Source: an uncultured Burkholderiales bacterium
Lineage (GTDB): Bacteria > Pseudomonadota > Gammaproteobacteria > Burkholderiales > Burkholderiaceae
DNA: 64,000 nucleotides
Reading direction: 5' to 3'
NCBI GenBank assembly: GCA_946480465.1
Contig: CAMLJY010000006.1
Span: 62,001-126,000, forward strand
Shown here: positions 38,214 through 56,248 of the stretch, in pieces
Position numbering within the stretch: the stretch's first letter is position 1
How the letters are laid out: every line of letters begins with the position of its first letter
Translations under genes and position numbers: made by a program
Notes under the pieces: generated by a model
Told to the model about the DNA's origin: nothing
The model's input: only the letters and a program-made list of their open reading frames with translations
Databases searched by the model: none

Positions 38214-39482
38214 ATGAGCAAGAAGGCGACGAGTTGGACGGACGCCAAGGTGCGCGCGGTGAAGCTGCCTGAGGGCAAGACTGAGCAGCGTGTGCGGGTC
38301 GATGCCGGGCTGTACCTGTACCTGCGCAAGCGCGCTGGCGACGAGCTGTCCAAACAGTGGCAGTACCGGGCTCAGGTGAACGGGGCTCGTCGCTGGCTGG
38401 CGCTGGGGACCTTCCCCGCCGTTGGTCTCGCAAAGGCGACCGAGGAACGGCTCGCGCATTCGAAGGTCGGCGTGGCCGCCAAGAAGGGCGAGGCCGACCA
38501 CCCTGCCATCGTGGCCCGCCAGGAGCGCCGGACCAAGAACGCGATGCCGACCGTCGCGGAGCTGTTCGAGGAGTGGGTCGCCGACAAGCGCATGGGCAGT
38601 TCGCGAAAGGGCGGAGCTCCCGTGCGCGAGCGAACCATCACCGTGCTGAAGGAGAACTTCGATCTCGACATCAAGGACAGGGTCGGGGCCTCGAAGGTCG
38701 CGCTGCTGACGCGCCAGGCACTGCAGGACTGCATCGACGCGCCGCGGCGGCGCGGCGCCCCCGGGGCTGCTGCTCACGTCTACCGGACGCTCCGGGGGCT
38801 CATCAACTTCGCCATGAAGCGTGGCTACCTGGAAGGCGCCGATCCGATGCGCGGCATCGAGAACCCTCGGCCCTACCGTCCCGGCCCGGTGGTCGCCGCC
38901 AACGATCAGGAACTCCTCGCGCTGTTCGCGGCGCTGGACGCCTCCAAGAGAATGTGGCCTGCGACGAAGCTGGCGATCGAACTCCAGTTGCTGACCGGCG
39001 CCCGTCCCGCGGAGGTTCGGCTGGCCGAGTGGGGCGAGATCGACCGGAAGCGGAACGTCTGGACCATCCCGGCCGAGCGCGTGAAGACCGGCCGGCCGTT
39101 CCGGATCGCTCTTTCGCCGGCCGCGCTTGCAGTGCTCGACCGGGCAGCGTCCTTGAAGGTCGATGGCTCGTCGATCGTGTTCCCGGGAGCCAAGGGCAAG
39201 GCGATGGAGAAGACCGCAATCGCCCGCGCGCTGCGGCGCCTCGCGGCGAAGGCCCCCGCGGACGACGGCAAGAGACTGCGACCTCACGATCTACGCAGGA
39301 CGTTTCGAACGATGCTCTCGCGCCTCGGCGTCGCACCGCACATCGCAGAGCTATGCATGAACCATCTCGAGACCGAGACGATGCGCCGGGTGTACGACGG
39401 GCACGACTACAGCGAAGAGATGACGAATGCGTGGCGGAAGGTCGGGGCGCACATTGCGAGCGTCCGGCTCGGGCCCCCATAG
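38214..39482 (+). CDS. int: P4-type tyrosine integrase (DUF4102 arm-binding domain)
   Basis: 422 residues. The N-terminal DUF4102 arm-binding domain (VRVDAGLYLYLRKRAGDELS; LALGTFPAVGLAKA) is followed by a SAM-like core-binding domain and the catalytic domain with Arg264 (TGARPAEVR), His358 and Arg361 (HDLRRT), His384 (MNHLETE) and the nucleophile Tyr394 (RRVYDGHDY). It integrates the element into the tRNA-Thr 3' end. No good ribosome site precedes the ATG. The gene points into the element. Confidence 0.95.
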   Translation: MSKKATSWTDAKVRAVKLPEGKTEQRVRVDAGLYLYLRKRAGDELSKQWQYRAQVNGARRWLALGTFPAVGLAKATEERLAHSKVGVAAKKGEADHPAIVARQERRTKNAMPTVAELFEEWVADKRMGSSRKGGAPVRERTITVLKENFDLDIKDRVGASKVALLTRQALQDCIDAPRRRGAPGAAAHVYRTLRGLINFAMKRGYLEGADPMRGIENPRPYRPGPVVAANDQELLALFAALDASKRMWPATKLAIELQLLTGARPAEVRLAEWGEIDRKRNVWTIPAERVKTGRPFRIALSPAALAVLDRAASLKVDGSSIVFPGAKGKAMEKTAIARALRRLAAKAPADDGKRLRPHDLRRTFRTMLSRLGVAPHIAELCMNHLETETMRRVYDGHDYSEEMTNAWRKVGAHIASVRLGPP

Positions 39483-41212: not shown

Positions 41213-41375
41213 TTAAACTGATGTGGCCGGCGCCAGCGGCTGTACTCCGAGCTTGTAGCCCAGCACGCCCAGCACCTTCACGATCGTGGCCAGCGACGGG
41301 TTGCCCGTAGGCGCAAGTGCTCGGTGCAGACCTTCGCGGCTTAGCCCCGCATCACGCGCCACGGCCGCCGCTCCG
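41213..41375 (-). pseudogene. C-terminal remnant of an addiction-module antidote (HigA-like)
   Basis: One frame reads AAVARDAGLSREGLHRALAP, TGNPSLATIVKVLGVLGYKL and GVQPLAPATSV before a stop, which is the classic C-terminal two-thirds of the putative addiction-module antidote family (Xre-type helix-turn-helix). No start codon or N-terminus exists upstream and no toxin gene is adjacent. The rest of 40957-41387 has no recognisable gene. Confidence 0.7.
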
Positions 41376-41387
41376 CCGGCGGGCCCA

Positions 41388-41531
41388 TCAACCCTTGCGT
41401 CGCGCCTCGAACGCCTCGCGCTGGGCGGGCGTTGCCTTCTTCACGCGGTCCTCGACTTGCTTGCGCATCGCCGTCCGCTCGGCTTCGGTTCTGGGCTTCC
41501 GAGCAGGCTTGCCGAGGGCGGGAGGCTTCAT
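41388..41531 (-). CDS. Small basic protein, free-standing paralogue of the nested ORF in the giant gene
   Basis: 47 residues, Lys/Arg/Glu rich (MKPPALGKPARKP ... TPAQREAFEARRKG). GGAG six bases before the ATG is a good ribosome site; in-frame Met codons upstream (41543, 41672) would extend it to 52 or 94 residues. Its counterpart at 51142-51300 shares GKPxRKP, RKQVExRV, ATPxQR and the RRKG end. Differences in the shared core fall almost only at third codon positions, which argues that this frame is translated. Function unknown; the charge suggests nucleic-acid or protein binding. Confidence 0.6.
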   Translation of the reverse strand: MKPPALGKPARKPRTEAERTAMRKQVEDRVKKATPAQREAFEARRKG

Positions 41532-41672
41532 GTGCATCTCCATCGCCGCGATTCTGCGCCAGGACGCCGATGCTGGCCCCGAGACGCCAAGGGCGCCTCC
41601 AGCGTATCCGATCAGGTCGGATTGCAGCGCGACAGACACGCGCCGAGGATCGGTGGCATGAACCTCCCGCAC

Positions 41673-43655: not shown

Positions 43656-43756
43656 GTGCGGCTCCTTGTGCGTGGTCCAAGGCTGCCGCCGTCGCTGCTA
43701 TTCAACGGGTGGCAGCCCGAAACGGGGTAGCAGACCGGACACAAGGAACCGGCAGG

Positions 43757-43912
43757 CCCGAAGGCCTCCCCGCCCGGGCCGCCGTTGATCGGTGGTCCGT
43801 GCGTGCGCGCGGCCGCTTCGACAGCGAAGCGGGCATGAAAATGCCGCTCTTGAGGCGGCCGCACGCCTTGTGATTCCGGGCTGCTATTCCCGACCGCTGA
43901 TGTGCAGCGGCG
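43757..43912. other. Cluster of small perfect hairpins
   Basis: In order: AGGCC-CGAA-GGCCT (from about 43759); CGCTTCG-ACAG-CGAAGCG (43816-43833); GGCAT-GAAA-ATGCC (43834-43847) with a GNRA loop; and CCGCT-N7-AGCGG near 43896-43912. GCGGCCGC copies at 43811 and 43858 can close an outer stem round the middle two, making a compact branched fold. No convincing gene covers this interval (43656-44021). Possible structured RNA or phage control region. Confidence 0.45.
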
Positions 43913-44021
43913 ATGCAACTCTAGGCGATGCGCCGGAGGAACGCAAGCATTGCGCTTGGACGCTGATATTAAGCACTAGGCATTTCGCATCTGAACGTGA
44001 CGCCAGCGCGTCGCCGTGCCC

Positions 44022-44833: not shown

Positions 44834-47062
44834 TCAACTGGGCAAGAACCCAAGACCAGTCGCCGCAAGACCGAGAAGGTCAACACTCTGCACGTTGTAC
44901 TCGGACTGGCAGGCCAGAAGCGCCAAGCTCTCCCGAGTCATCGCACCACCATCGACGAGTCCGACGAAGTCATGCAGTTCACCCGGGCTCGGCTCCTGGC
45001 CAATCACATTTCTGTATAGGTGGCGTACAAATGACTCAGTTGATCCGCTCCCTGCGAAGGTCGGAACGAGCGTCGAGCCGAGTGCTACAAGGTCGCCGTA
45101 GCTCATGCCATCGTCCAAGAGCCTGAGCGCAAGGCCCACGTACCTCTCCTCCGCGAGAAAAGCGGGCCCAAAAATCGCGCGGATGATCTGGGCAGCCTGT
45201 CCGGCGTTCCCGCTGGCATGTGTGTCGAGGGCTATCGCCGCGTCTGCAAACGTCAGCCGCTCGATGCCCACCAATGAGTCGACCCCCTCAGCGCCGGACG
45301 AGTCAGTCACCTGCCAGCCAATTCCACTCTTCTCGATGACGTACTCAGATAGAGCACCAGCAAACCTCGCTGTGTCGATCCCATCCCCGCCATCGAGGGA
45401 ATCGTCTCCTCCGCCCCCTGCTACGCTGTCGCGGCCAGCCTTGAGCTGATACGAATCAGCGCCAGGGAACCCTTGCAGGTCCTCGGCTTGTTCAGTGCCG
45501 AGGAATGTGTCACTGACACTCGTGATTGACAGGTTGACCGTGTAGACCTCGCTGCTGGCTTTGCCGTCCGTCACCCTGAACATGAACGAGTCGCTGCCAG
45601 AGTAGTTGTTCGCTGGCATGTAGGTGAACGCGCCCGACGGCGTGATAGTCACCACTCCGTGGGAAGGATCGCTAGCCTTGACATAGGTGACAGGGTCTCC
45701 TTCTGGGTCAACTGCGGCAGGGAGAACGCTGCTGATGGATCCGTCCTCCTTTCCCTGAAAAGCTGCGGCCGTTGCTGCAGGAGGCGCGTTCGTTCCTGGC
45801 GCGATCTCCAGGTTGAACGAGTCGCTGACGGCGAGAGATCCATCGGAAGCCGTCACCTTGATCGATACCGTGCCCACATTCGCAGGCGAAGGCGTTCCGG
45901 AGAACGACCGCGTTGCCCCGTTGAAAGTCAACCAGGTTGGCAGGGCCCCACCGTTGCCCGCAACTGCCGTTAAGGTCAGAGCACTGTCAACGTCACTGAA
46001 CGTGTTCGACGGGATCACGAACTGGAAGGGCACCTTAGCTGTCCCGAGCTGATCCGGAATCTGCGAAGTGACGACAGGGGCATCATTCACGGGCGCAACT
46101 GTGATGCTCACTACGCCTGAATTGGAGTCGAGGGAGCCGTCGTTTGCGACAAACACAAAGGAATCGGAACCTGCGAAGTCCTTCTGGGGCTGGTACGTGA
46201 ACGCACCATTTGACCCCAATTCCACGGTCCCGTGCAGCGGGGTGGTGATCACCCGCAAGAGAACCTGCGGGGTGTCAGCATCGGTGACTGACAACGTTCC
46301 CTGGAGGACGCCGTCCTCGGACACATTCTTCGATTGAGGGTACGAGACTGGCGCGTCGTTTACGGGCCGCACCACCACGCTCATGGTGTACGTGCTTGAG
46401 CTGCCGAGTGAATCGGTGACTTTGAACTGAAAGGAGTCGGGTCCGCTGTAGTCCGGAAGGCCAAGGTAGACGAAACTGCCGTCCGCCTTTATCGCAACGC
46501 CACCGTGCAGAGGTTGTGAAGCAATCGAATATGTGATCGCATTGCCCTCAGCATCAAGGGCCAAGGGCAAAATGCCGGCGCCTGGCGTGTCCTCATCAAC
46601 TGCCCAAGTTCCATTGCTGGAGACCGGTGCCGTGTTGAGGGGCTCCTGATACTTGATGGTCAGGGCATAGCTCGTGGTCGCGAAGCCGGAGAGCTTCACC
46701 GATAGGTCGTCGCTTGATCCGTACCAGTTGAATGATATGGCTGCATCGCCTCCGACGGTGCTCGTGGTGAACAAGTTGGAGCCGTAGCGATCAAGCAGTG
46801 TCACCGAAAGCGTGCCGTATGCATTCGCCCAGGCCTCCCCGAGGGGCTTGTTCGCTGGGTCGGTGCTCACGTATAGCGTGTAGCGGCCTGCCCCTGAGAG
46901 GGAGACAGAGTAACGGTCGTAGTCGTAGGACGGCGAGATCGCTCCGACCGACACCCAGTCTCGTTGGACCTTGTACAGAGACGATGTGTAGAAGTCAGGA
47001 GCGTCGCTGTACTTTTCATCCCAGATCGAGCGAAGTCCGCCGAGATACATGACCGCCCCCAT
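44834..47062 (-). CDS. Large secreted cadherin-like/RTX protein with DUF4214 end
   Basis: About 742 residues. An N-terminal PPC-like beta domain (YSVSLSGAGRYTLYVSTD) is followed by repeated tandem-95/cadherin-like domains (each with SGPDSFQFKVTDS or AGSDSFVFVANDG-type ends), an Ig-like putative domain (TLTAVAGNGGALPTWLTF), a short RTX block (GGGGDDSLDGGDGIDTARFA) and a DUF4214 module. There is no N-terminal signal, so type I secretion is likely. Base composition looks lower in GC than the flanks. ATG 47062 or 47050 is the probable start. Cargo adhesin of the element. Confidence 0.78.
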   Translation of the reverse strand: MGAVMYLGGLRSIWDEKYSDAPDFYTSSLYKVQRDWVSVGAISPSYDYDRYSVSLSGAGRYTLYVSTDPANKPLGEAWANAYGTLSVTLLDRYGSNLFTTSTVGGDAAISFNWYGSSDDLSVKLSGFATTSYALTIKYQEPLNTAPVSSNGTWAVDEDTPGAGILPLALDAEGNAITYSIASQPLHGGVAIKADGSFVYLGLPDYSGPDSFQFKVTDSLGSSSTYTMSVVVRPVNDAPVSYPQSKNVSEDGVLQGTLSVTDADTPQVLLRVITTPLHGTVELGSNGAFTYQPQKDFAGSDSFVFVANDGSLDSNSGVVSITVAPVNDAPVVTSQIPDQLGTAKVPFQFVIPSNTFSDVDSALTLTAVAGNGGALPTWLTFNGATRSFSGTPSPANVGTVSIKVTASDGSLAVSDSFNLEIAPGTNAPPAATAAAFQGKEDGSISSVLPAAVDPEGDPVTYVKASDPSHGVVTITPSGAFTYMPANNYSGSDSFMFRVTDGKASSEVYTVNLSITSVSDTFLGTEQAEDLQGFPGADSYQLKAGRDSVAGGGGDDSLDGGDGIDTARFAGALSEYVIEKSGIGWQVTDSSGAEGVDSLVGIERLTFADAAIALDTHASGNAGQAAQIIRAIFGPAFLAEERYVGLALRLLDDGMSYGDLVALGSTLVPTFAGSGSTESFVRHLYRNVIGQEPSPGELHDFVGLVDGGAMTRESLALLACQSEYNVQSVDLLGLAATGLGFLPS

Positions 47063-47186
47063 CGGTTCGAAGGATCCGCATTCTGCCCCTGTGCTACAAA
47101 AGGTTACAAGCAGGAAGTGGAACATTCCCTGCTCTGCGTCAAACCAGCAGTGAGGGGGCAACGGGCCGTCGCGGGTGCGGACGGCG

Positions 47187-47734: not shown

Positions 47735-50700
47735 TCAGTCCACCTCCGCAAACCGCCCTTCCGCTCGGAAGTGGTCGCGGGTCTTCGGCAGGTAGGTGCC
47801 GTCGGCCGTTTGCCGCTCCCGCCGCTGTCTGGCGATGACCGAAGCTGCGATGTTTGAGCCGCGAATGGCCTCCTTCGGGTTGCGCCGGTTGAACTCGGCG
47901 ATGTCTTCCATGGCCTCGCGCGTGCCGTCGCTGTCGCCGTGGATGCGAGCTTGGGCGGCACGAGACAGCAGGCCCTTGCGCTTCTCCAGCACGGCGGTCT
48001 CGGCGTTCTTGATGGCCCCGGTGGCCTCGTACATCTCCGACACGCGGGCCGGCGTAAAGCCCAGCAGCTTGCCCAACACCTCGGCGCCGGTCACGTCCAT
48101 GCGGTGCTCGCCGCTGAACGTCGTCACGCCCTCGCCCGAGAACCGGCCCGCCTGGATGGCGTCGCGCACGAACTTCGGCACGATCGCCTCGGTGGCCTTG
48201 GCGTAGTTGCCACGACCGAGGTGCTCGGATGCGGTGTACCAGCCCAGGATCGTGCCGGCCGTGGGCCCAAGCAGGTTCGTGAGGTCAGTTGCGAACGCCT
48301 CGCGTGGCGACTGCCCCTCGCGGTCGTTGGACCGCAGCCAGAGATCACCCAGCCCGACGCGGTTCGCCACATCCCAAGGGATCAGCGCGCGCATCAAGCC
48401 GTGCGACAGCACTTCGCCCACGTCCTGGCCGGCCACGTCGGACGCTAGGTTGCGGAACTCCGTCTTCCAGTCCCAAGGCTTGTCGTCATCGTCCAGTGCG
48501 CCGACCAGCATGCTCAGCAACCCGCCGGCCATGCTCAGACCCGGCAGGCCCAAAGTGCCGGCCATCGCGAACGTTGCAGCGAAGGTGGCCATGAGCTGCC
48601 GGCGCGCGATGCCGCGCACTTCGGCGTCCTCGCCCTTCAGCGCGAGATACGCAGCGCGGCCGATGAAGTAGGTCATGTTCTGGCTGAAGGTCTTGAACTG
48701 CAAGACGACCCTGGCCAAGTTGCCCTGCATGTAGCGCGCCCGGTTCGAGGCCGAGTAGTCGAAGTGACTGCGCTTGATCGTCTCGCGGGCGGCATCCTCG
48801 GCCCTTGCCTGATCCCCTGACTTGGCCAGCTCCAGGCGGAACGCGGTCAGGGCCGCGATCTGGCGGTTCATCACCTCCGGAATGTGGAAGGTCCATCCCA
48901 CGATCTTCATCGCCCGGGACATCGCAAACGCAGCCTTCGAGCGGGCGACGTTGCCGCGGTCGATGCTGGTGGCCGAGGCCAGGTCGTGCGCCTGGGTTAG
49001 GTCGATGACGCCCTCGTCCTGGAGCTTGCGCATCACCTCCCGCTCGACCGGCGCCAGCTTGGGGCTGTCGGCAGCGTTCCACCCGGACTCCCGGTTCATC
49101 TTCGCGCCAAGGATGTCCTTGGAGGCCCTGCCCATGGCCGCAGTCGCGCTGCCGAAGCCGTAGCGCGCGCCGAGGTAGGGCAGCGTCACCATCGGGTTCT
49201 GCAGGAGCTGGATGAGGCCGGCAGCCGGCGAGGCGCCGAGGTACATCACGAAGCCCACCTGGTTGAGGAGCGCGGCAATGGGGTGCGTGTTCGGGTTCAT
49301 GACCGCGTCGTGCCGCAAGGCCAGTTCGTTCAGCACTTGGCTGGGCGCGTTGAAATCGCCGTCGGGCGCCTTGTCCAGGGTGCGGTAGGCGTCTTCCAGG
49401 GCGAACGACATCTGGTCAGCATGGTTGAGCCTGGCGATGTGGCTCGCCGCATGGAACGCGCTCGACGCAAAGCCACGCATGACGTCCGAGCTGAAGCCGG
49501 GCGTGTTCTTGCGATGGGCAAAGTGCTTCCGGTAACTGAGGTCAGGCAGCGACCGGATGAACACCTGGTTGATGTCGTCGAGCAGCTTGGACTTGAGGTC
49601 CGAGGCCTTCCCGTTGATGGCCGCGTCCTGGAAGTCAAGCGCCTGCAGCGTCGTCAGCACTTGGCCAATGAACTTGCCCGCAGAGCCGTCCAGCGCACGG
49701 CTGTACTCGCGTGCCGTCTTGGTCTTCACCGTGAAGCCGTCCTGCCGCAGCGCTCGGGCAGCGGTGGACTGCTCCCCAGCAGTCTCGTAGCTCGCCACGA
49801 CCCGTTCCCCGTCCGCGCGCTCGCCGATGACCAGGTAGTCCCCGAACCGGGAGAGTGGGAAGTACGGCCCATGCTCGGCGTACTGGTCGAAGGCCTGACG
49901 GATGCTGGTCAGCGCCGCTGCACGGGCCTCGCCGTTCTCGATCTGCCGCTGCAGCCGCTTCTCCAGTGCTTCGCGAAGCTGGCCGAGGATGCCGGCGTGG
50001 AAGTCGCGCACCCGGCGGTACATCGCCTGCGCCTCCTCGGGCAGGGCTGCGAACTCCCGTGCGAGCCGCGCGTGAACGAGCTTGCGCCGCGCCTCGATGG
50101 TGCCGTCGTTCCCCGTGATGGTGTTGAACTCTCCATCGGGATGGACGCTGTTGACCGTGGCGTCGAGCATCACCCGGGCGAGCTTGTCGTTCACCACCGA
50201 GCCGAGCTTGGACCAGTCGTTGTAGATGGTGTCGGCGTCCTGCGCGATCTTGCTGCGCTGGTTCTCCATCGACCGGGTGAGACCGTCGTATTCCTTCACC
50301 GCAGGGATGTCCTTGCCGTAGATGTCGGCGAGCTGGTCCCGCGTGAGGGCGCCGAGCCAGAACGGGCGAGCGCCGTCGACCACCGAGCGGATGCGGTCCT
50401 GGCGCGTGGCGCCAAGTCGGTTGAAGTCGAAGACACCTCCACCGGCCGGCGCAAGGTCTTGAGCTGTCGACCTGGACTCAGATCTGCTCAGCGACGTGTC
50501 CTGCGACGCGCTCGCGGTCACGCGAGTGTCGAGGCCTGCACGAGCCACGCCGGCCACGAAGTCCGAGACCATCTCGTCGGTCCACGTGAGGCGGAACCCA
50601 AGCGCGTCCGTCACCTTGTCGAGCCAGGCACGGATGAGCGTGAGCAGCTTGGTCCAGCCGCGGAGGTCTCGCGCCTCGCCCTTGCCTGCCAGGTCCGCCA

Positions 50701-53700
50701 AAGCTTCCTCGATCGCCTCGTCCTGGCCAATGCCATGGCGCTCCATCTGAACCTGGGTGAGGGTGCGGAGCTTCGCATTGGTGGCGTGCATCCACTGCAG
50801 CACCTTGCGTGCGTCTGGCCCAAGCGTCTTGACCAAGCCGCGGTGGAAGGACTCATGCAGCGCGACGAAGGTTGCTTCGGCTTCGCTGTAGAGGTTGCCG
50901 GCGATCAGGTAGGCCTGGTCACTGGCCTTGAAGTACGCCCCGCGGATCTTGCCGTCAGCGGCCTTGTCGAGTGCCGCACGACGCTCGGTCGGCGGCAGGT
51001 CGTCCACGGACTCGACCACCTGCATGTGCGTGCCGACCTTCGCGGCGATTTCGCGGACTCGCTCAGGGCTGAGCGTGCGGTCGAGCAGCCGATTGATGGT
51101 GTCCTCTGGCAGGGCCATGATCGCCTCTGCCTCGGCGCGCGTCAGCCCTTGCGGCGTGCGCGCTCCTGCAGCGCCTCGATCTGCGCGCGCTGTTCCGGCG
51201 TCGCGTTCCTGACCCGCTCCTCGACTTGCTTTCGCGTCTGAGCGCGCTGCTCCGGCGTCACGGGCTTCCGCGTAGGTTTGCCAGTTGAGGGTGCCGTCAT
51301 ATGCTTCTCCTGCTCCGGCGTTCTGCTCGGGAACGCCCATCTTCGCCCAGAACCCGCGGGCATCGGGGACGATGTTGCTGATGTTGAGATTGCCACGGGT
51401 GGATGCCAGCACTGTCTCAATGACCTTGCGGCCCGCGCCATCGCCCCGGTGGTACATCTCGATGTCGATCAGAGACACAGGCTGACCGTCCTTCAGCAGC
51501 AGCACGACGTGACCGAGCACGTCGAATCGGTCGCTCGGCATCACGGCATAGCTCACCACCTGTTCGCCCTCGTCCTCGATCACCTCGAAGCGTTCCGTGA
51601 CCTGAGGGGCAGCCAGCACGATGCCCGCTTCCGCGTTCGCATAGGTCGGCAGGCCGTCGTCGGTGGAGACGACCTCGACGAAGGGCGCGGCACGGCTGAA
51701 CAGCGCGACATTGCCGGCTTCGTCCTGCCGCGTCTCGATCACCCGGAAGAACTCGTCGAATGCCGCGCGCACGGCCGGCATCTCGTCAGCCGTCGGGTAC
51801 AGATAGGTGCCTGTCGCATCGTCGGGGTCTCGGCCCAGCGCGATGGCGCGCATGCCCTCAGTCGCGTCCCATGCCTGCTGGCTCACGACGTTGGCGAGGT
51901 AGTCGTTCGCGGCGTTCTGGTCTTCCAGCTTGGCGATGACGTAGGTCTCGAAAGACCGGGCCGACAGTTCCTCGTGTTTGCTCCAGTAGGGCGTCGAGCG
52001 GCGCTCATCCAGCTCCATCGACCGATTGTTCAGGCCCGACGCCTGCGTCGCCTTCTTGACCGCCTCGAACGCCAAGCGCATCTGCTCGCGCATGTCCGCA
52101 CGTGCGCCCGCCGTGACGAAGCTGCGGCCGTCACCGGCGAAGTAGTTGTCCAGCGCGTGCCACCACTCGTGTGCCAGGCTCCCAGGCCCACCGCCCTTGG
52201 TCAGGTTGATGACGACCTTGCCGGGCTCGAAGTGCGCGGCCGGCGCGCTCTTCCCGCCGCGGCCGCGCGCGCCGAAGGCCAGCCCCAGCCGGCCATTGAG
52301 GGACAGCGCGCGCGCCGGGATGCCTAGCACCCCCGCCATGTCCATCAGTGCGTCGAAGGCCTCGTTCAGGTCTGACTGCCGGCGGCCCTGCTCGACGTAG
52401 TTGCCGAACTGCACGCCCCGGAAGCCGAACGCGTCGGCGAAGGCCTCCGGCGTGACCGGCGCGCCGTTGCGGTGGTCGTCGCCCACGCGCGGCTGGTTCT
52501 CTGGCCGGCGCTCCAACGGCGTTTCCTTGTACGAGGCCAGCAGCGCTTCCAGTTCGGCCGTGTTCTCGGCCATGTAGGTGCGGGCCTTGGCCACGTCATC
52601 GACGCGCTTCAGGTCGACGTACTGGCGCCCGATCTTCTTGCCGATCCAGGCGCCCTCCTGCCCGCGCTTCGTGTAGATGACGAACTGCGGCTGGCCCTTG
52701 GCCTTGGGGCCCAGGTCCAGGCTGTCGAGCTTGGCCTTGAACTGCGCCAGCGCCTCTTCCTTGGTGTCGGCGATGGCCAACTCGCGCGGCCAGTTGCTGA
52801 ACATCGTGGCTTTGGCCTTCTGCTCGACCACCCACTTGCGGACGTTCTCCTCATCGCGATAGCGGGTGTAGTGATGCTCCTGCAGCGTCACGCCCTTGAG
52901 CGAGCGCTCGTGGCCCACCTCGCGGTACAGCTCGGCGCGGCCACCGATGGCCGACCGCACGTTGCGGAACTCGGGCATCCAGAGCTTCGCCTCGACCGCC
53001 TCACGCGTGATGCTGCCGTCCAGCAGGCGCGTAGACACGTCGCGCAGGAGCTTGACGTTCTCCACCCAGCCCTTGAGCTTCCACGACGACTGCGGCTTCG
53101 TCGGCACCTCGTCGCGCGCGGCCCGTACGAAGGACACCATCCACGGATCAGCGCCGCCTTCCAGCAGCTTCGCGTAGTCGGGCTCGGGCCACGACTTCGA
53201 CAGCGGCTCGGCGCCGAGGTCAACAGCAGCGGCCTCGGCCATGCGGTCCTTGAGCGCCGCCGCGTAGTCCTTGCGGGCGCCGGCCAGCTTCTCGCCGAAG
53301 TCCTCGATCTTGGCCGGCGCTGGCGCCTCATCCAGCTTGCCGCTGTTCAGCACATCCAGCCGCGAGCGCACAGCCTGCATGGACGCGTCGCGCGTGGGCT
53401 TGCCGCCGCGCCGCAGCTTTGCGGCGCTTGCCAGGATGGCTGCCCTGTCGCTCGGCTCGATCGCACTTCCCGCCTTCCGCAAGCACAGCGTCAGACTGCC
53501 GCCGGCAACGCACTGCGCCAGCTCCTCCAAGACGCGCTTGCGGGCATGCACCTTGTCGCCTGCGGCCTCTGACACCGCCGCGGCAAGCGTCGTGCGGCGC
53601 TTGTCTTCTCGCCGCGCAGCCAGGCGCTCGGCGAGATGGGGCTGCGCGCCTTGCGCGCCGAGATCTTCCTTCAGCGCTTCCGCCGTCGGTTCGATTCCTG

Positions 53701-56248
53701 TTCGAGGATTCGAACCGGCATCGCCCTCTGCTTCCGCCTCAATGCCTGAGCCTTCTTCCTGCGGGGCCTGTGTTGCGGGTTCGACTCCCACGCCGGGATT
53801 CGAACTGCTCCCGCCAGCTTCATCGGTGTGCCGGGGCTGCGTGTGCTCGCGCTGCCCGTGTTGCGCTTCCGAAGCCCTTCCCCCGGCGCCCAGCACCTGA
53901 CCAGACGCACCGTCGTGCAAACTGGGCTGTCCCTTCGGCGTCTTCGCGTATCGCACGGCGAAGTTCCAGCCGTCGGAGTCATTGAAGATGACGCGGGACC
54001 GGCCATCCTCGCTCTTCGCACGCATCACGCGGCCCGTCACGCTGACGATGGTCCACTTGACGCCCTGCTGGGTGAACACGTCGCCTGCGGAGGGCAAGCG
54101 AGGAGATGCGTCTTCCGCTTCGGGCGTGCTTGGGCCAGCGGCGGCCGGCGCACTCGCCGGGATAGGAGCGGGGGGCTTCAGGAGGGTGTACGTGTACTTC
54201 CCGGAACGATTGCGAATCCTGACCACCTCTGATCCCGGGATCTTCGCGGCTTGCGTCTCGGCACCCAGCTTGGACATGGGGCGCATGTCGGGGGTGCGCG
54301 GCACGATGCGCGGCTCGGCTGCGGCAACTGGTGGCACGGCTGGCGCCTGCGCGCCGGCATCAGGCGGCAGCGGAGCGGCTTGCGATCCGGTTTCAGCGGT
54401 CGGCATGGCCCGGCGCAGCGCCGCAGCCATCGGGCTTTCGCCTTCCAGCGTCGCCGCGCGGGCCACCGCCGCAGCCTGCTCATCCTGCGCGCGCACGTCC
54501 GCCGGCATGCGCTCCAGGTCCGCGGCCTTCTGTGCTTCAGCGCGGGCCGCCTCGGCATCGAGCGTGATGCCGGCAAGGTCGCGCTCCAACGTCCGGCCAC
54601 CGGGCAGCACCGGCAGCGCGGCATCGCCGCTTGGCGCAAGGGTGCGCGGCGCCAGCGCCTCGCTGCGGATGCGCGCGTTGTTCTCGGCCTCCCAGCGGCC
54701 CGCCGCGAGCGCTTCGTCTGCGTAGGCGTCCATGCCTGGCGCGCCGACCACCCACTCACTGGGAACAGCAGTCCAGCCCGTGCCGTCGGGCAGCGGGATC
54801 GCCGTCAGTCGACGGTTCTGCTGCTCCTGCGCGACGGTCACCATCTCCCGGGCGCGCCCTTCGGACATGGGCTCTGCGCGCGCAGCCCAGCGGTCGATGT
54901 TGCCGCGCGCGCGCTCGTCCGCCGCGGCCGGCGTCAGCGTCACCTGCCAGCGATCGCCGACCAGCACGGCTTGGTACTGGCCCAGACCGCCGTCACTTTG
55001 GCCGATCCAGACATCCGCGGCCTGTTTCGAGCCGAAGGCGGGCAACGCGCCAGCCTGCCCAAGCACGGGCCTGCCGGTGAAGAGTGGGTCGGCCTCGAAT
55101 GGGATGCCGTCGCCCGGCGCCTTGGCGCCAAGTTCAGTGGTCGGCTCCTTCTTGGTGTCGCCGAACAAGGCGTCGGTCGAGAACTCGATGGCCCTGTCGA
55201 TGTCCGGCGCGGCCAGGATGGCCGGTACCGGGTCGTGTTCCCTGGGGCCGCGCAAGGCGCCGCCAGCAGCACCTATGGCTGTGCCGCCGAGAGCACCAAG
55301 CGCAGCCGCATCGCGGGCCTTCGCCAGTGTTTCAGGGCCAAAGGCATCTCTCCCCTGGCCGTATTCCTCCAGCATCGTCTGGCCGAACTCCGTGCCGGCC
55401 TCAATGGGTGCTGTGCCTGCAGCCGCAATGCCACCTCGTGCCACGCGCCCGGCGAAGCCCTGCATAGCCTGTGCAGGCTTCAAGAAGGGCGACTTGCCGA
55501 GAGCGATGTCCAGACCGATCTTGTCGCCGACGAACTCCAGGCCGCCTGCCGCCAGGGTTGCGGCGAAAGCCTTGCCCAACTCGGCGCCGGTCAGCGAGCG
55601 GCCTTCTTTCTCGGCCTCCTGTGTGAGGCCGCCGAAGACTTCGCCGCCCTCTTGTCCGATGGCTTGGCCAGCCAGCGCCGTGCTCGCTCCGATCGAAGCG
55701 AACTTCGCGGCGACGGCTTCGGTGGCCTGCTTGGCGACCTGCTCTGCGGTCAGCTTGCCGGCAGACTCGGCGCCGATGCGCGCAGCCTCCTTCGCGACCA
55801 TGCCCTCGGCGATCTGCTTCGCGGCAGTGCCGGCAACGAACTTGCCGCCGATGGCGCCAAGGCCAGCCGTGGCCAACGCCTGAAGGCCTTGGCCGCCGAC
55901 ATAGCCCAGGCCATGCTGCAGCCAGTCAACCAGCGCGCCGAAGTCGCCCTCTTTCGCGCGGTCATAGCTGTGTGACCACGAGTCGCTTTCCTTGGCCTGG
56001 CTGGCGATCTTGTCGCCCCACTCGGTGTAGCCGCGGACACCGGCCTTCTTGATGCCAGTGGCGATGCCACCCTCACCGAACGCGGCTTCACCGGCAGCAC
56101 CGACGCCAGCCAGCACGCCGTACCCGAGCTGCGGGAGCTGCTGGAAGGATTCCTTGAAGCCACGGCCAAAGTCACCGCTATCAGGCGGCACCGGCGGCGG
56201 GAGTCCAGGACTGGGGTTCAGGCCGTAGAGATCGAACAGACTTGGCAC
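47735..56248 (-). CDS. Giant polyvalent phage protein (LPD5/LPD1 zincin, GNAT-like, PLxRFG)
   Basis: 2837 residues. The first about 340 are Gly/Ala-rich with amphipathic helices (GYGVLAGVGAAGEAAFGEGG), like membrane-penetrating ejection proteins. Later come an LPD5-like segment (TPEAFADAFGFRGVQFGNYV, near 1280), an LPD1-like zincin (SLAHEWWHALDNYF, His1360-His1364), an acetyltransferase-like region (about 1550-1640), a second HExxH-type site (ALHESFHRG, His1798), the PLxRFG motif (FPLSRFG, Pro2131) and a helical C-terminus. Such proteins are carried in virions and enter with phage DNA. The frame is intact. It lies 9 bases below the coiled-coil gene. Confidence 0.88.
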   Translation of the reverse strand: MPSLFDLYGLNPSPGLPPPVPPDSGDFGRGFKESFQQLPQLGYGVLAGVGAAGEAAFGEGGIATGIKKAGVRGYTEWGDKIASQAKESDSWSHSYDRAKEGDFGALVDWLQHGLGYVGGQGLQALATAGLGAIGGKFVAGTAAKQIAEGMVAKEAARIGAESAGKLTAEQVAKQATEAVAAKFASIGASTALAGQAIGQEGGEVFGGLTQEAEKEGRSLTGAELGKAFAATLAAGGLEFVGDKIGLDIALGKSPFLKPAQAMQGFAGRVARGGIAAAGTAPIEAGTEFGQTMLEEYGQGRDAFGPETLAKARDAAALGALGGTAIGAAGGALRGPREHDPVPAILAAPDIDRAIEFSTDALFGDTKKEPTTELGAKAPGDGIPFEADPLFTGRPVLGQAGALPAFGSKQAADVWIGQSDGGLGQYQAVLVGDRWQVTLTPAAADERARGNIDRWAARAEPMSEGRAREMVTVAQEQQNRRLTAIPLPDGTGWTAVPSEWVVGAPGMDAYADEALAAGRWEAENNARIRSEALAPRTLAPSGDAALPVLPGGRTLERDLAGITLDAEAARAEAQKAADLERMPADVRAQDEQAAAVARAATLEGESPMAAALRRAMPTAETGSQAAPLPPDAGAQAPAVPPVAAAEPRIVPRTPDMRPMSKLGAETQAAKIPGSEVVRIRNRSGKYTYTLLKPPAPIPASAPAAAGPSTPEAEDASPRLPSAGDVFTQQGVKWTIVSVTGRVMRAKSEDGRSRVIFNDSDGWNFAVRYAKTPKGQPSLHDGASGQVLGAGGRASEAQHGQREHTQPRHTDEAGGSSSNPGVGVEPATQAPQEEGSGIEAEAEGDAGSNPRTGIEPTAEALKEDLGAQGAQPHLAERLAARREDKRRTTLAAAVSEAAGDKVHARKRVLEELAQCVAGGSLTLCLRKAGSAIEPSDRAAILASAAKLRRGGKPTRDASMQAVRSRLDVLNSGKLDEAPAPAKIEDFGEKLAGARKDYAAALKDRMAEAAAVDLGAEPLSKSWPEPDYAKLLEGGADPWMVSFVRAARDEVPTKPQSSWKLKGWVENVKLLRDVSTRLLDGSITREAVEAKLWMPEFRNVRSAIGGRAELYREVGHERSLKGVTLQEHHYTRYRDEENVRKWVVEQKAKATMFSNWPRELAIADTKEEALAQFKAKLDSLDLGPKAKGQPQFVIYTKRGQEGAWIGKKIGRQYVDLKRVDDVAKARTYMAENTAELEALLASYKETPLERRPENQPRVGDDHRNGAPVTPEAFADAFGFRGVQFGNYVEQGRRQSDLNEAFDALMDMAGVLGIPARALSLNGRLGLAFGARGRGGKSAPAAHFEPGKVVINLTKGGGPGSLAHEWWHALDNYFAGDGRSFVTAGARADMREQMRLAFEAVKKATQASGLNNRSMELDERRSTPYWSKHEELSARSFETYVIAKLEDQNAANDYLANVVSQQAWDATEGMRAIALGRDPDDATGTYLYPTADEMPAVRAAFDEFFRVIETRQDEAGNVALFSRAAPFVEVVSTDDGLPTYANAEAGIVLAAPQVTERFEVIEDEGEQVVSYAVMPSDRFDVLGHVVLLLKDGQPVSLIDIEMYHRGDGAGRKVIETVLASTRGNLNISNIVPDARGFWAKMGVPEQNAGAGEAYDGTLNWQTYAEARDAGAARSDAKASRGAGQERDAGTARADRGAAGARTPQGLTRAEAEAIMALPEDTINRLLDRTLSPERVREIAAKVGTHMQVVESVDDLPPTERRAALDKAADGKIRGAYFKASDQAYLIAGNLYSEAEATFVALHESFHRGLVKTLGPDARKVLQWMHATNAKLRTLTQVQMERHGIGQDEAIEEALADLAGKGEARDLRGWTKLLTLIRAWLDKVTDALGFRLTWTDEMVSDFVAGVARAGLDTRVTASASQDTSLSRSESRSTAQDLAPAGGGVFDFNRLGATRQDRIRSVVDGARPFWLGALTRDQLADIYGKDIPAVKEYDGLTRSMENQRSKIAQDADTIYNDWSKLGSVVNDKLARVMLDATVNSVHPDGEFNTITGNDGTIEARRKLVHARLAREFAALPEEAQAMYRRVRDFHAGILGQLREALEKRLQRQIENGEARAAALTSIRQAFDQYAEHGPYFPLSRFGDYLVIGERADGERVVASYETAGEQSTAARALRQDGFTVKTKTAREYSRALDGSAGKFIGQVLTTLQALDFQDAAINGKASDLKSKLLDDINQVFIRSLPDLSYRKHFAHRKNTPGFSSDVMRGFASSAFHAASHIARLNHADQMSFALEDAYRTLDKAPDGDFNAPSQVLNELALRHDAVMNPNTHPIAALLNQVGFVMYLGASPAAGLIQLLQNPMVTLPYLGARYGFGSATAAMGRASKDILGAKMNRESGWNAADSPKLAPVEREVMRKLQDEGVIDLTQAHDLASATSIDRGNVARSKAAFAMSRAMKIVGWTFHIPEVMNRQIAALTAFRLELAKSGDQARAEDAARETIKRSHFDYSASNRARYMQGNLARVVLQFKTFSQNMTYFIGRAAYLALKGEDAEVRGIARRQLMATFAATFAMAGTLGLPGLSMAGGLLSMLVGALDDDDKPWDWKTEFRNLASDVAGQDVGEVLSHGLMRALIPWDVANRVGLGDLWLRSNDREGQSPREAFATDLTNLLGPTAGTILGWYTASEHLGRGNYAKATEAIVPKFVRDAIQAGRFSGEGVTTFSGEHRMDVTGAEVLGKLLGFTPARVSEMYEATGAIKNAETAVLEKRKGLLSRAAQARIHGDSDGTREAMEDIAEFNRRNPKEAIRGSNIAASVIARQRRERQTADGTYLPKTRDHFRAEGRFAEVD
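51142..51300 (-). CDS. Nested 52-codon gene inside the giant gene (alternate frame)
   Basis: A basic product beginning MTAPSTGKPTRKPVTPEQRA and ending ERARRKG, on the same strand as the giant gene but in another frame, opposite codons about 1650-1703. GGAG lies six bases before the ATG. It is homologous to the free-standing ORF at 41388-41531 and differences between them fall mainly at third positions of this frame. In the giant protein the same DNA encodes a low-complexity Ala/Arg linker between the acetyltransferase-like and second zincin domains, a spot tolerant of overprinting. Translation is inferred. Confidence 0.5.
   Translation of the reverse strand: MTAPSTGKPTRKPVTPEQRAQTRKQVEERVRNATPEQRAQIEALQERARRKG
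53688..53716. repeat. tRNA T-arm-like inverted repeat in the giant gene
   Basis: GGTTCGATTCCT and AGGATTCGAACC flank GTTCG, forming a near-perfect palindrome. A second, diverged copy (GTTCGA ... TTCGAAC) with the same 29-base span lies about 90 bases further at 53778-53805. In the protein they encode SNPRTGIEPTAE and SNPGVGVEPATQ. They sit in a linker region and look like inserted repeats rather than tRNA genes. Confidence 0.4.

Follow-up and report, generated by a model that had tools for sequence, protein, structure and literature searches.

Small genes nested in another frame of a phage gene are exemplified by Rz1, which lies inside Rz in tailed phages; the two encode lysis proteins and are separate genes in some phages. 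In the GNAT toxin-antitoxin modules TacT and AtaT, the antitoxin is a ribbon-helix-helix protein encoded by a separate gene. Gene callers tend to discard frames nested in long genes, and overprinted genes are therefore likely to have been overlooked in giant phage genes. Overprinted (nested) genes of viruses and bacteria have been reviewed (PMC8227390) and described in a case report (PMC4683798). Large polyvalent proteins of phages and conjugative elements were introduced by Iyer et al. 2017 (PMC5512222), and the PLxRFG domain is treated in PMC9505181. The main text of PMC5512222 uses the word "overlap" 0 times, and its passages on these terms mention no second gene in another frame. We found no report of an overprinted, overlapping or internal-start gene in polyvalent proteins in the open-access literature, which is not proof of novelty; the claim of the sequence-only reading that such a nested gene is undescribed is consistent with that literature.

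We analyzed a 64,000-nucleotide stretch of DNA (the window), which contains part of a prophage with an integrase (38214-39482, plus strand), a C4 RNA, a DnaC-like loader and an O-like replication protein. A giant gene of 2837 codons occupies positions 47735..56248 on the minus strand. Its product was assigned to the large polyvalent proteins because it carries the LPD5 (E 2e-37), LPD1 (8e-18) and LPD39 (3e-30) domains together with a PLxRFG domain (2e-184). It is also very long and multidomain and lies on a phage element, as expected of this class. Adjoining the giant gene at 44834-47161 (minus strand) is the gene for a 775-codon protein with Ig/cadherin-like repeats and a match to DUF4214 and RTX repeats. 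The C4 antisense RNA and its a1/b1 target, at 43705-43789 and 43873-43924 on the minus strand of the GC-rich prophage, scored 72 and 48 bits, respectively. A C4 antisense RNA with an a1/b1 target is the arrangement of P1/P7-type immunity control.

Within the giant gene lies a nested small gene of 52 codons with an ATG start and a TGA stop (51142..51300, minus strand). It is read in frame +1 of the giant gene, such that position 1 of a small codon is position 2 of a giant codon. A Shine-Dalgarno-like GGAG (51307..51310, minus strand) stands six bases 5' of the nested ATG. A free-standing copy of 47 codons was found at 41388..41531 (minus strand), again with a GGAG (41538..41541, minus strand) six bases 5' of its ATG. 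Both open reading frames, their start codons and their GGAG sequences were exactly where the sequence-only reading had placed them, and its proposal that the two peptides are homologous was borne out by 51% identity on alignment. It had further stated that, across the shared core, almost all base differences between the copies fall at third positions of the small frame. Counted per small-frame positions 1/2/3, this was accurate for the core (0/2/8 over codons 23-38) but not over the 47 aligned codons (11/11/22).

The nested gene begins within the final part of a GNAT-like domain, which spans residues ~1540-1667 of the giant protein (51248..51631, minus strand). A protein search with giant residues 1540-1800 retrieved 36 proteins, the window's own included. 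In alignment A1, composed of 16 chosen segments, A-Y-x-G was invariant, and the D, T and L of DGTLN were nearly so. We named the domain only "GNAT-like" because 8 of these 16 members matched Pfam Acetyltransf_7 (PF13508) at E ≤ 0.1 (best 1.9e-4), with no match for the window's own row. Acetyltransferases made up 7 of the 9 PDB sequence matches of the domain, all of them weak (E ≥ 0.047). The alignment of relatives placed the conserved end of the domain, AYDGTLNWQTYAEA, at 51263..51304 (minus strand, giant frame), where it overlaps the first ~14 nested codons. The earlier view that the giant protein is only linker here was therefore incorrect for this part, but it held for the remainder of the nested gene (51142..51262, minus strand), over which relatives showed a poorly conserved giant frame and a conserved small frame.

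Both the nested ATG and its GGAG are built out of frame from codons of this conserved domain end (AYDGTLNW). In the window, the ATG consists of the last two bases of the Tyr codon TAT and the first base of the Asp codon, while the GGAG is formed from the giant codons for A-G-E-A. The GGAG would presumably serve as a ribosome site. On the minus strand, the surroundings of the nested and free copies contained no promoter-like site. A single plus-strand promoter-like match near the nested start was taken as chance.

Scans of virus contigs yielded 13 distinct records with a relative, and further viral scans produced no additional one. Seven records with the motif or AYEG (L001-L005, L020, L029) were kept, giving eight loci with the window. 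The other six (L006-L010, L016/L030), whose GNAT matches were distant and lacked the motif, were excluded; of these, L007 and L009 lie in long open frames, and their +1 frames gave no match to the small family. All 7 kept viral loci are within giant frames that extend beyond the nested stretch or to the contig end. Two genome scans found no relative, and nothing was recovered when the region, the GNAT-like domain and small proteins were used as queries against phage and plasmid collections at the DNA and translated levels. When L020 DNA was used as the query, 2 plasmid and 34 phage records matched, and the matches listed (2 of 2, and the best 20 of 34) were outside the nested stretch.

At every one of the eight loci the slot holds an ATG and the small frame is open, as expected of an overprinted gene, whose open frame and start inside another gene are kept in relatives. 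The sequence-only reading had staked its case on homologous giant genes having neither stops nor a missing start in the small frame, and neither defect was seen. The start codon is drawn from different giant codons: it is TAT|G in the window, L003, L004, L020 and L029, whereas L001 and L002 use GAT|G one codon later and L005, with the motif AYEG, uses CAT|G. Within the giant frames of these loci, TAT accounts for 5-19% of Tyr codons and GAT for 13-38% of Asp codons. Among 1000 synonymous re-encodings that preserved the giant proteins, all eight ATGs were never reached; the maximum was 7 of 8, obtained twice. A GGAG- or GAAGG-like stretch precedes the ATG at each locus.

In the window (ORF 51142-51441), as in L001-L004 and L020, the small frame is also open for some codons 5' of the ATG, which would permit entry from upstream. 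Ribosomes could thus slip out of the giant frame, and the product would then be a shortened giant protein whose C-terminal part is the GNAT-like domain followed by a basic helical tail. We consider such frameshifting improbable, since the ATG is kept at all eight loci, mostly from rare codons and behind a GGAG- or GAAGG-like stretch, and since the window's free copy has its own start without the GNAT motif. The favored reading is independent initiation, in which an ATG and ribosome site supplied by codons of the GNAT-like end would open a +1 frame of ~50 codons. The conserved ATG and the GGAG-like sites suggest that ribosomes most likely initiate there on the giant mRNA, yielding a small, basic protein, a putative two-helix hairpin separate from the giant protein.

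Homology of the small frame was assessed with an HMM from which each copy and its near relatives had been removed before scoring. All 6 tested copies matched among 6141 ORFs: the nested (3e-16) and free (2e-15) copies of the window, and L001 (2e-8), L002 (3e-14), L003 (5e-11) and L004 (7e-8). Five of the 7 viral relatives had a clear small-frame homologue, L005 was marginal (HMM E 0.025-0.39), and L029 was not significant, showing no match to the small-family HMM. Counting the window, small-frame homology was clear in 6 of 8 loci. Relatives in protein databases were reached only with an alignment, as a search with the nested peptide as a single sequence found nothing. In global alignments of the linker only, the mean z was 4.3 for the small frame, 1.34 for the giant frame and 0.88 for the third frame, with the small frame above the giant in 27 of 28 pairs (near-identical L004/L020 included). 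The summed small-frame similarity of 7 loci was reached by 13 of 1000 giant-preserving re-encodings and was modestly above the null; this result is weaker, as much of the small frame is already dictated by the giant codons.

These comparisons also bear on a chance open frame in GC-rich DNA. The viral records have a GC content of 63-68%, and 6-48% of giant-preserving re-encodings per locus yielded an ATG-started frame of at least 45 codons, so chance is possible for single members such as L029. As an account of the whole set it is scarcely credible in the face of the small-frame homology, the start-codon test, and the synonymous-site test and shadow scan described below.

Selection on the small frame was clearest between L004 and L020, which share one block that counts as one comparison; 414 of its codons were compared (364 upstream, 50 nested). 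Among degenerate identical codons, giant-synonymous changes were found in 1 of 42 nested versus 87 of 311 upstream codons (Fisher p 8e-5). By giant position 1/2/3, differences numbered 28/18/106 upstream and 5/3/1 in the nested stretch after the motif, for third-position shares of 106/152 and 1/9 (p 7e-4). Across codons 17-49, limits that were picked after the sequences had been seen, the small frame had 5 silent changes and 1 replacement (pS 0.23, pN 0.01), and the giant frame had 0 and 6 (pS 0, pN 0.08). The contrast was weaker over the whole nested frame (small pS 0.16, pN 0.06; giant pS 0.03, pN 0.10), as codons 11-16 contain a cluster of small-frame replacements. When the full L004/L020 alignment was scanned, which pairs largely unlike sequences, a third-position share as low as that of the nested stretch was seen in 3 of 1787 alignment windows, every one of them located there, and silent changes were equally few in 9 of 1787.

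Per 50-codon window, the giant frames of L004 and L020 are 12-34% identical before L004 codon ~1745 and 74-100% identical in the block after it. The block runs to the end of the L004 giant frame, with the matching part of L020, and includes the GNAT-like domain. This abrupt change in identity indicates domain shuffling between giant genes.

Between the window's two copies, pN/pS was 0.45 in the small frame (core 0.26) but 1.31 when their DNA was translated in the giant frame. In more divergent sets, differences per small position were 0.43/0.40/0.50, a modest third-position excess, and the giant wobble position varied least, the reverse of an ordinary gene. Relatives beyond the window, through synonymous-site and small-frame conservation, thus support the earlier proposal of selection on the small protein, although selection on the protein of the second frame, as expected of an overprinted gene, was seen in one close pair (L004/L020). 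Equal variation at all positions, which had been named as evidence to the contrary, was not seen in that pair, but the divergent pairs depart from it only by the small excess given above.

Depletion of giant-synonymous changes in the nested stretch would equally be expected if the DNA or RNA itself were conserved, as a structure, a binding site or a recombination site, and not a protein. Such an element is very improbable. Of the 6 changes in codons 17-49 of L004/L020, 5 leave the small protein unaltered, and in nearly all pairs the peptide is kept while the DNAs diverge at between one third and well over half of the sites of a codon position. Moreover, the free copy has the same peptide. A protein-coding nested stretch, its DNA shaped more by the small frame than by the giant frame, would account for these patterns.

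We also looked for the small frame behind giant proteins, using a shadow test that considers every synonymous encoding of a protein and scores how closely its +1 frame can match the 28-column core of the small family. Compared with shuffled linkers (200 shuffles), 27 of 31 motif-bearing giants had a shadow at p ≤ 0.05, 26 with z > 2, and the other 4 had none at p ≤ 0.05. Controls, run with 40 shuffles each, gave z > 2 in 0 of 31 cases for the other frame and in 3 of 74 for other low-complexity stretches of the same proteins (4 of 74 at p ≤ 0.05). When 36 giants were scanned along their full length (199,106 position-frame combinations), each of the 19 highest-scoring places was in the +1 frame and followed the motif by 13-25 codons. 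The 20th (P0030) followed a YDGQI variant of the motif. The test is not fully independent, because the window's protein is among the 31 giants (and gives one of the top 19 places) and some training peptides may derive from giants in the set.

The 21st best shadow place, at residue 516 of P0013, is away from the GNAT-like motif and is either chance or a second nested copy. In P0024, P0026, P0027 and P0029, the shadow lies 25 instead of ~15 codons past the motif, as if the N-terminus of the small protein were longer. L005, with its CAT|G start, resembles this subgroup.

On this evidence, we put the probability of a conserved, translated overprinted gene inside a giant phage gene at about 0.88, a figure that excludes its role.

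The free-standing copy retains a trace of its origin. The 60 nt directly 5' of it (41532..41591, minus strand) are identical at 37 of 60 positions to the GNAT-coding DNA before the nested copy, compared with 29 of 60 for the best of 2000 random window places. As ~60 nt of the GNAT end still precede the free copy, whose other frame lacks the GNAT motif, the free copy came from a nested parent and not the reverse. Directly 3' of the free copy, at 41213-41362 (minus strand), an HI1420-type addiction-module antidote is represented by a C-terminal piece (PF21716 positions 49-89 of 90). The missing N-terminal half of this antidote may mark the join where the free copy entered. The antidote adjoins the free copy, but its family differs from that of the small protein.

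Other free-looking forms emerged from the alignment search, which returned 23 small proteins. One of these, the Spy/CpxP-like P0060 (E 1.8e-3), was a likely chance match and was dropped, leaving 22 clusters. Half of them (11 of 22) are able to encode the motif in an overlapping frame, and the other 11 are not; the chance level was 42 of 2507 Met positions in giants compatible with the motif. Kept among the 11 non-encoders were P0051 and P0059, which have truncated-looking starts, and P0049 and P0052, which are near the limit of the motif rule. Inability to encode the motif suggests a free-standing gene but is not proof of one, because the window copy alone was seen as DNA. Clusters P0053-P0057 are free-looking, and P0046 (A. 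commune) could encode the motif. A tree of 19 sequences, in which 4 of 15 inner branches were well supported, placed the non-encoding forms in two clades that also hold nested ones. We conclude from the sequence flanking the free copy that escape from the giant gene certainly occurred in this prophage. It probably occurred a second time, in another clade of free-looking relatives. The other free forms would likewise derive from nested copies.

AlphaFold2 modeled the small protein with helices at 16-31 and 35-51 (pLDDT 84.6, pTM 0.45), and the predicted product is a basic two-helix hairpin. Net charge (K+R-D-E) is +7 and +9 for the two window copies. Within the limits used, the nested and free proteins had no match in Pfam, PHROGs, NCBIfam or PADLOC. 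A fold search with the predicted structure found nothing in the PDB, and among viral structures nothing better than E 5. Sequence matches of the small family in the PDB (19 at E ≤ 1; the best, at 3e-6, to a designed helical protein) were not taken as relatives.

What the product does is more speculative. The basic, helical character of the product would suit an independent peptide for host takeover or nucleic-acid binding that arose at this place and is unrelated to the GNAT part. We give this possibility about even odds; it differs from our best explanation in role only, and the two confidences overlap. Small proteins incapable of encoding the motif are in line with it, including P0054, whose longest contig is 0.43 Mb. 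The 20 best shadow places, by contrast, all follow the GNAT-like motif and suggest a lasting tie, though common origin could explain this as well.

We nonetheless lean toward a partner of the GNAT part: the small protein would be made alongside the giant protein yet separate from it, and the best shadows come after the GNAT-like end. It might act in the producing cell as an inhibitor, an antidote, or a folding or loading aid. This is a guess, and a rather doubtful one; overall, an unrelated small phage peptide is more likely than a role as GNAT partner or antidote. One version, which we regard as unlikely, casts the nested protein as an antidote that shields the producing cell from a GNAT effector destined for injection, and the free copies as orphan antidotes against related incoming phages. 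If so, the gene of the silencing peptide would lie inside the codons of the polyvalent protein's effector domain, with the peptide holding that effector inactive until delivery, and free copies (e.g. the one near the integrase here) would protect lysogens or hosts.

The locus offers a testable case of gene birth by overprinting followed by release: the nested gene can be followed through many relatives, its start codon and pattern of selection are visible, and so is at least one escape. It also provides a candidate partner for phage effectors of a class believed to be injected. Because it reads a hidden-frame profile from protein sequences alone, the shadow test is usable on any protein database.

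Compared with the TacT and AtaT modules, the locus would share the pairing of a GNAT domain with a small helical neighbor if the antidote reading is right; unlike the antitoxins of those modules, the nested protein matched no family in Pfam, PHROGs, NCBIfam or PADLOC. It resembles Rz/Rz1 in the nesting of a small phage gene, and we claim no relation in sequence or role. With the systems of PMC5512222 it has in common the LPD1, LPD5, LPD39 and PLxRFG domains and a GNAT-like domain of a kind listed there. Like the overprinted genes treated in PMC8227390 and PMC4683798, it would yield a second protein from another frame of an older gene. It differs from those known cases in that the host is a giant multidomain gene, the nested gene is tied to the end of one domain across many relatives, and a free copy exists.
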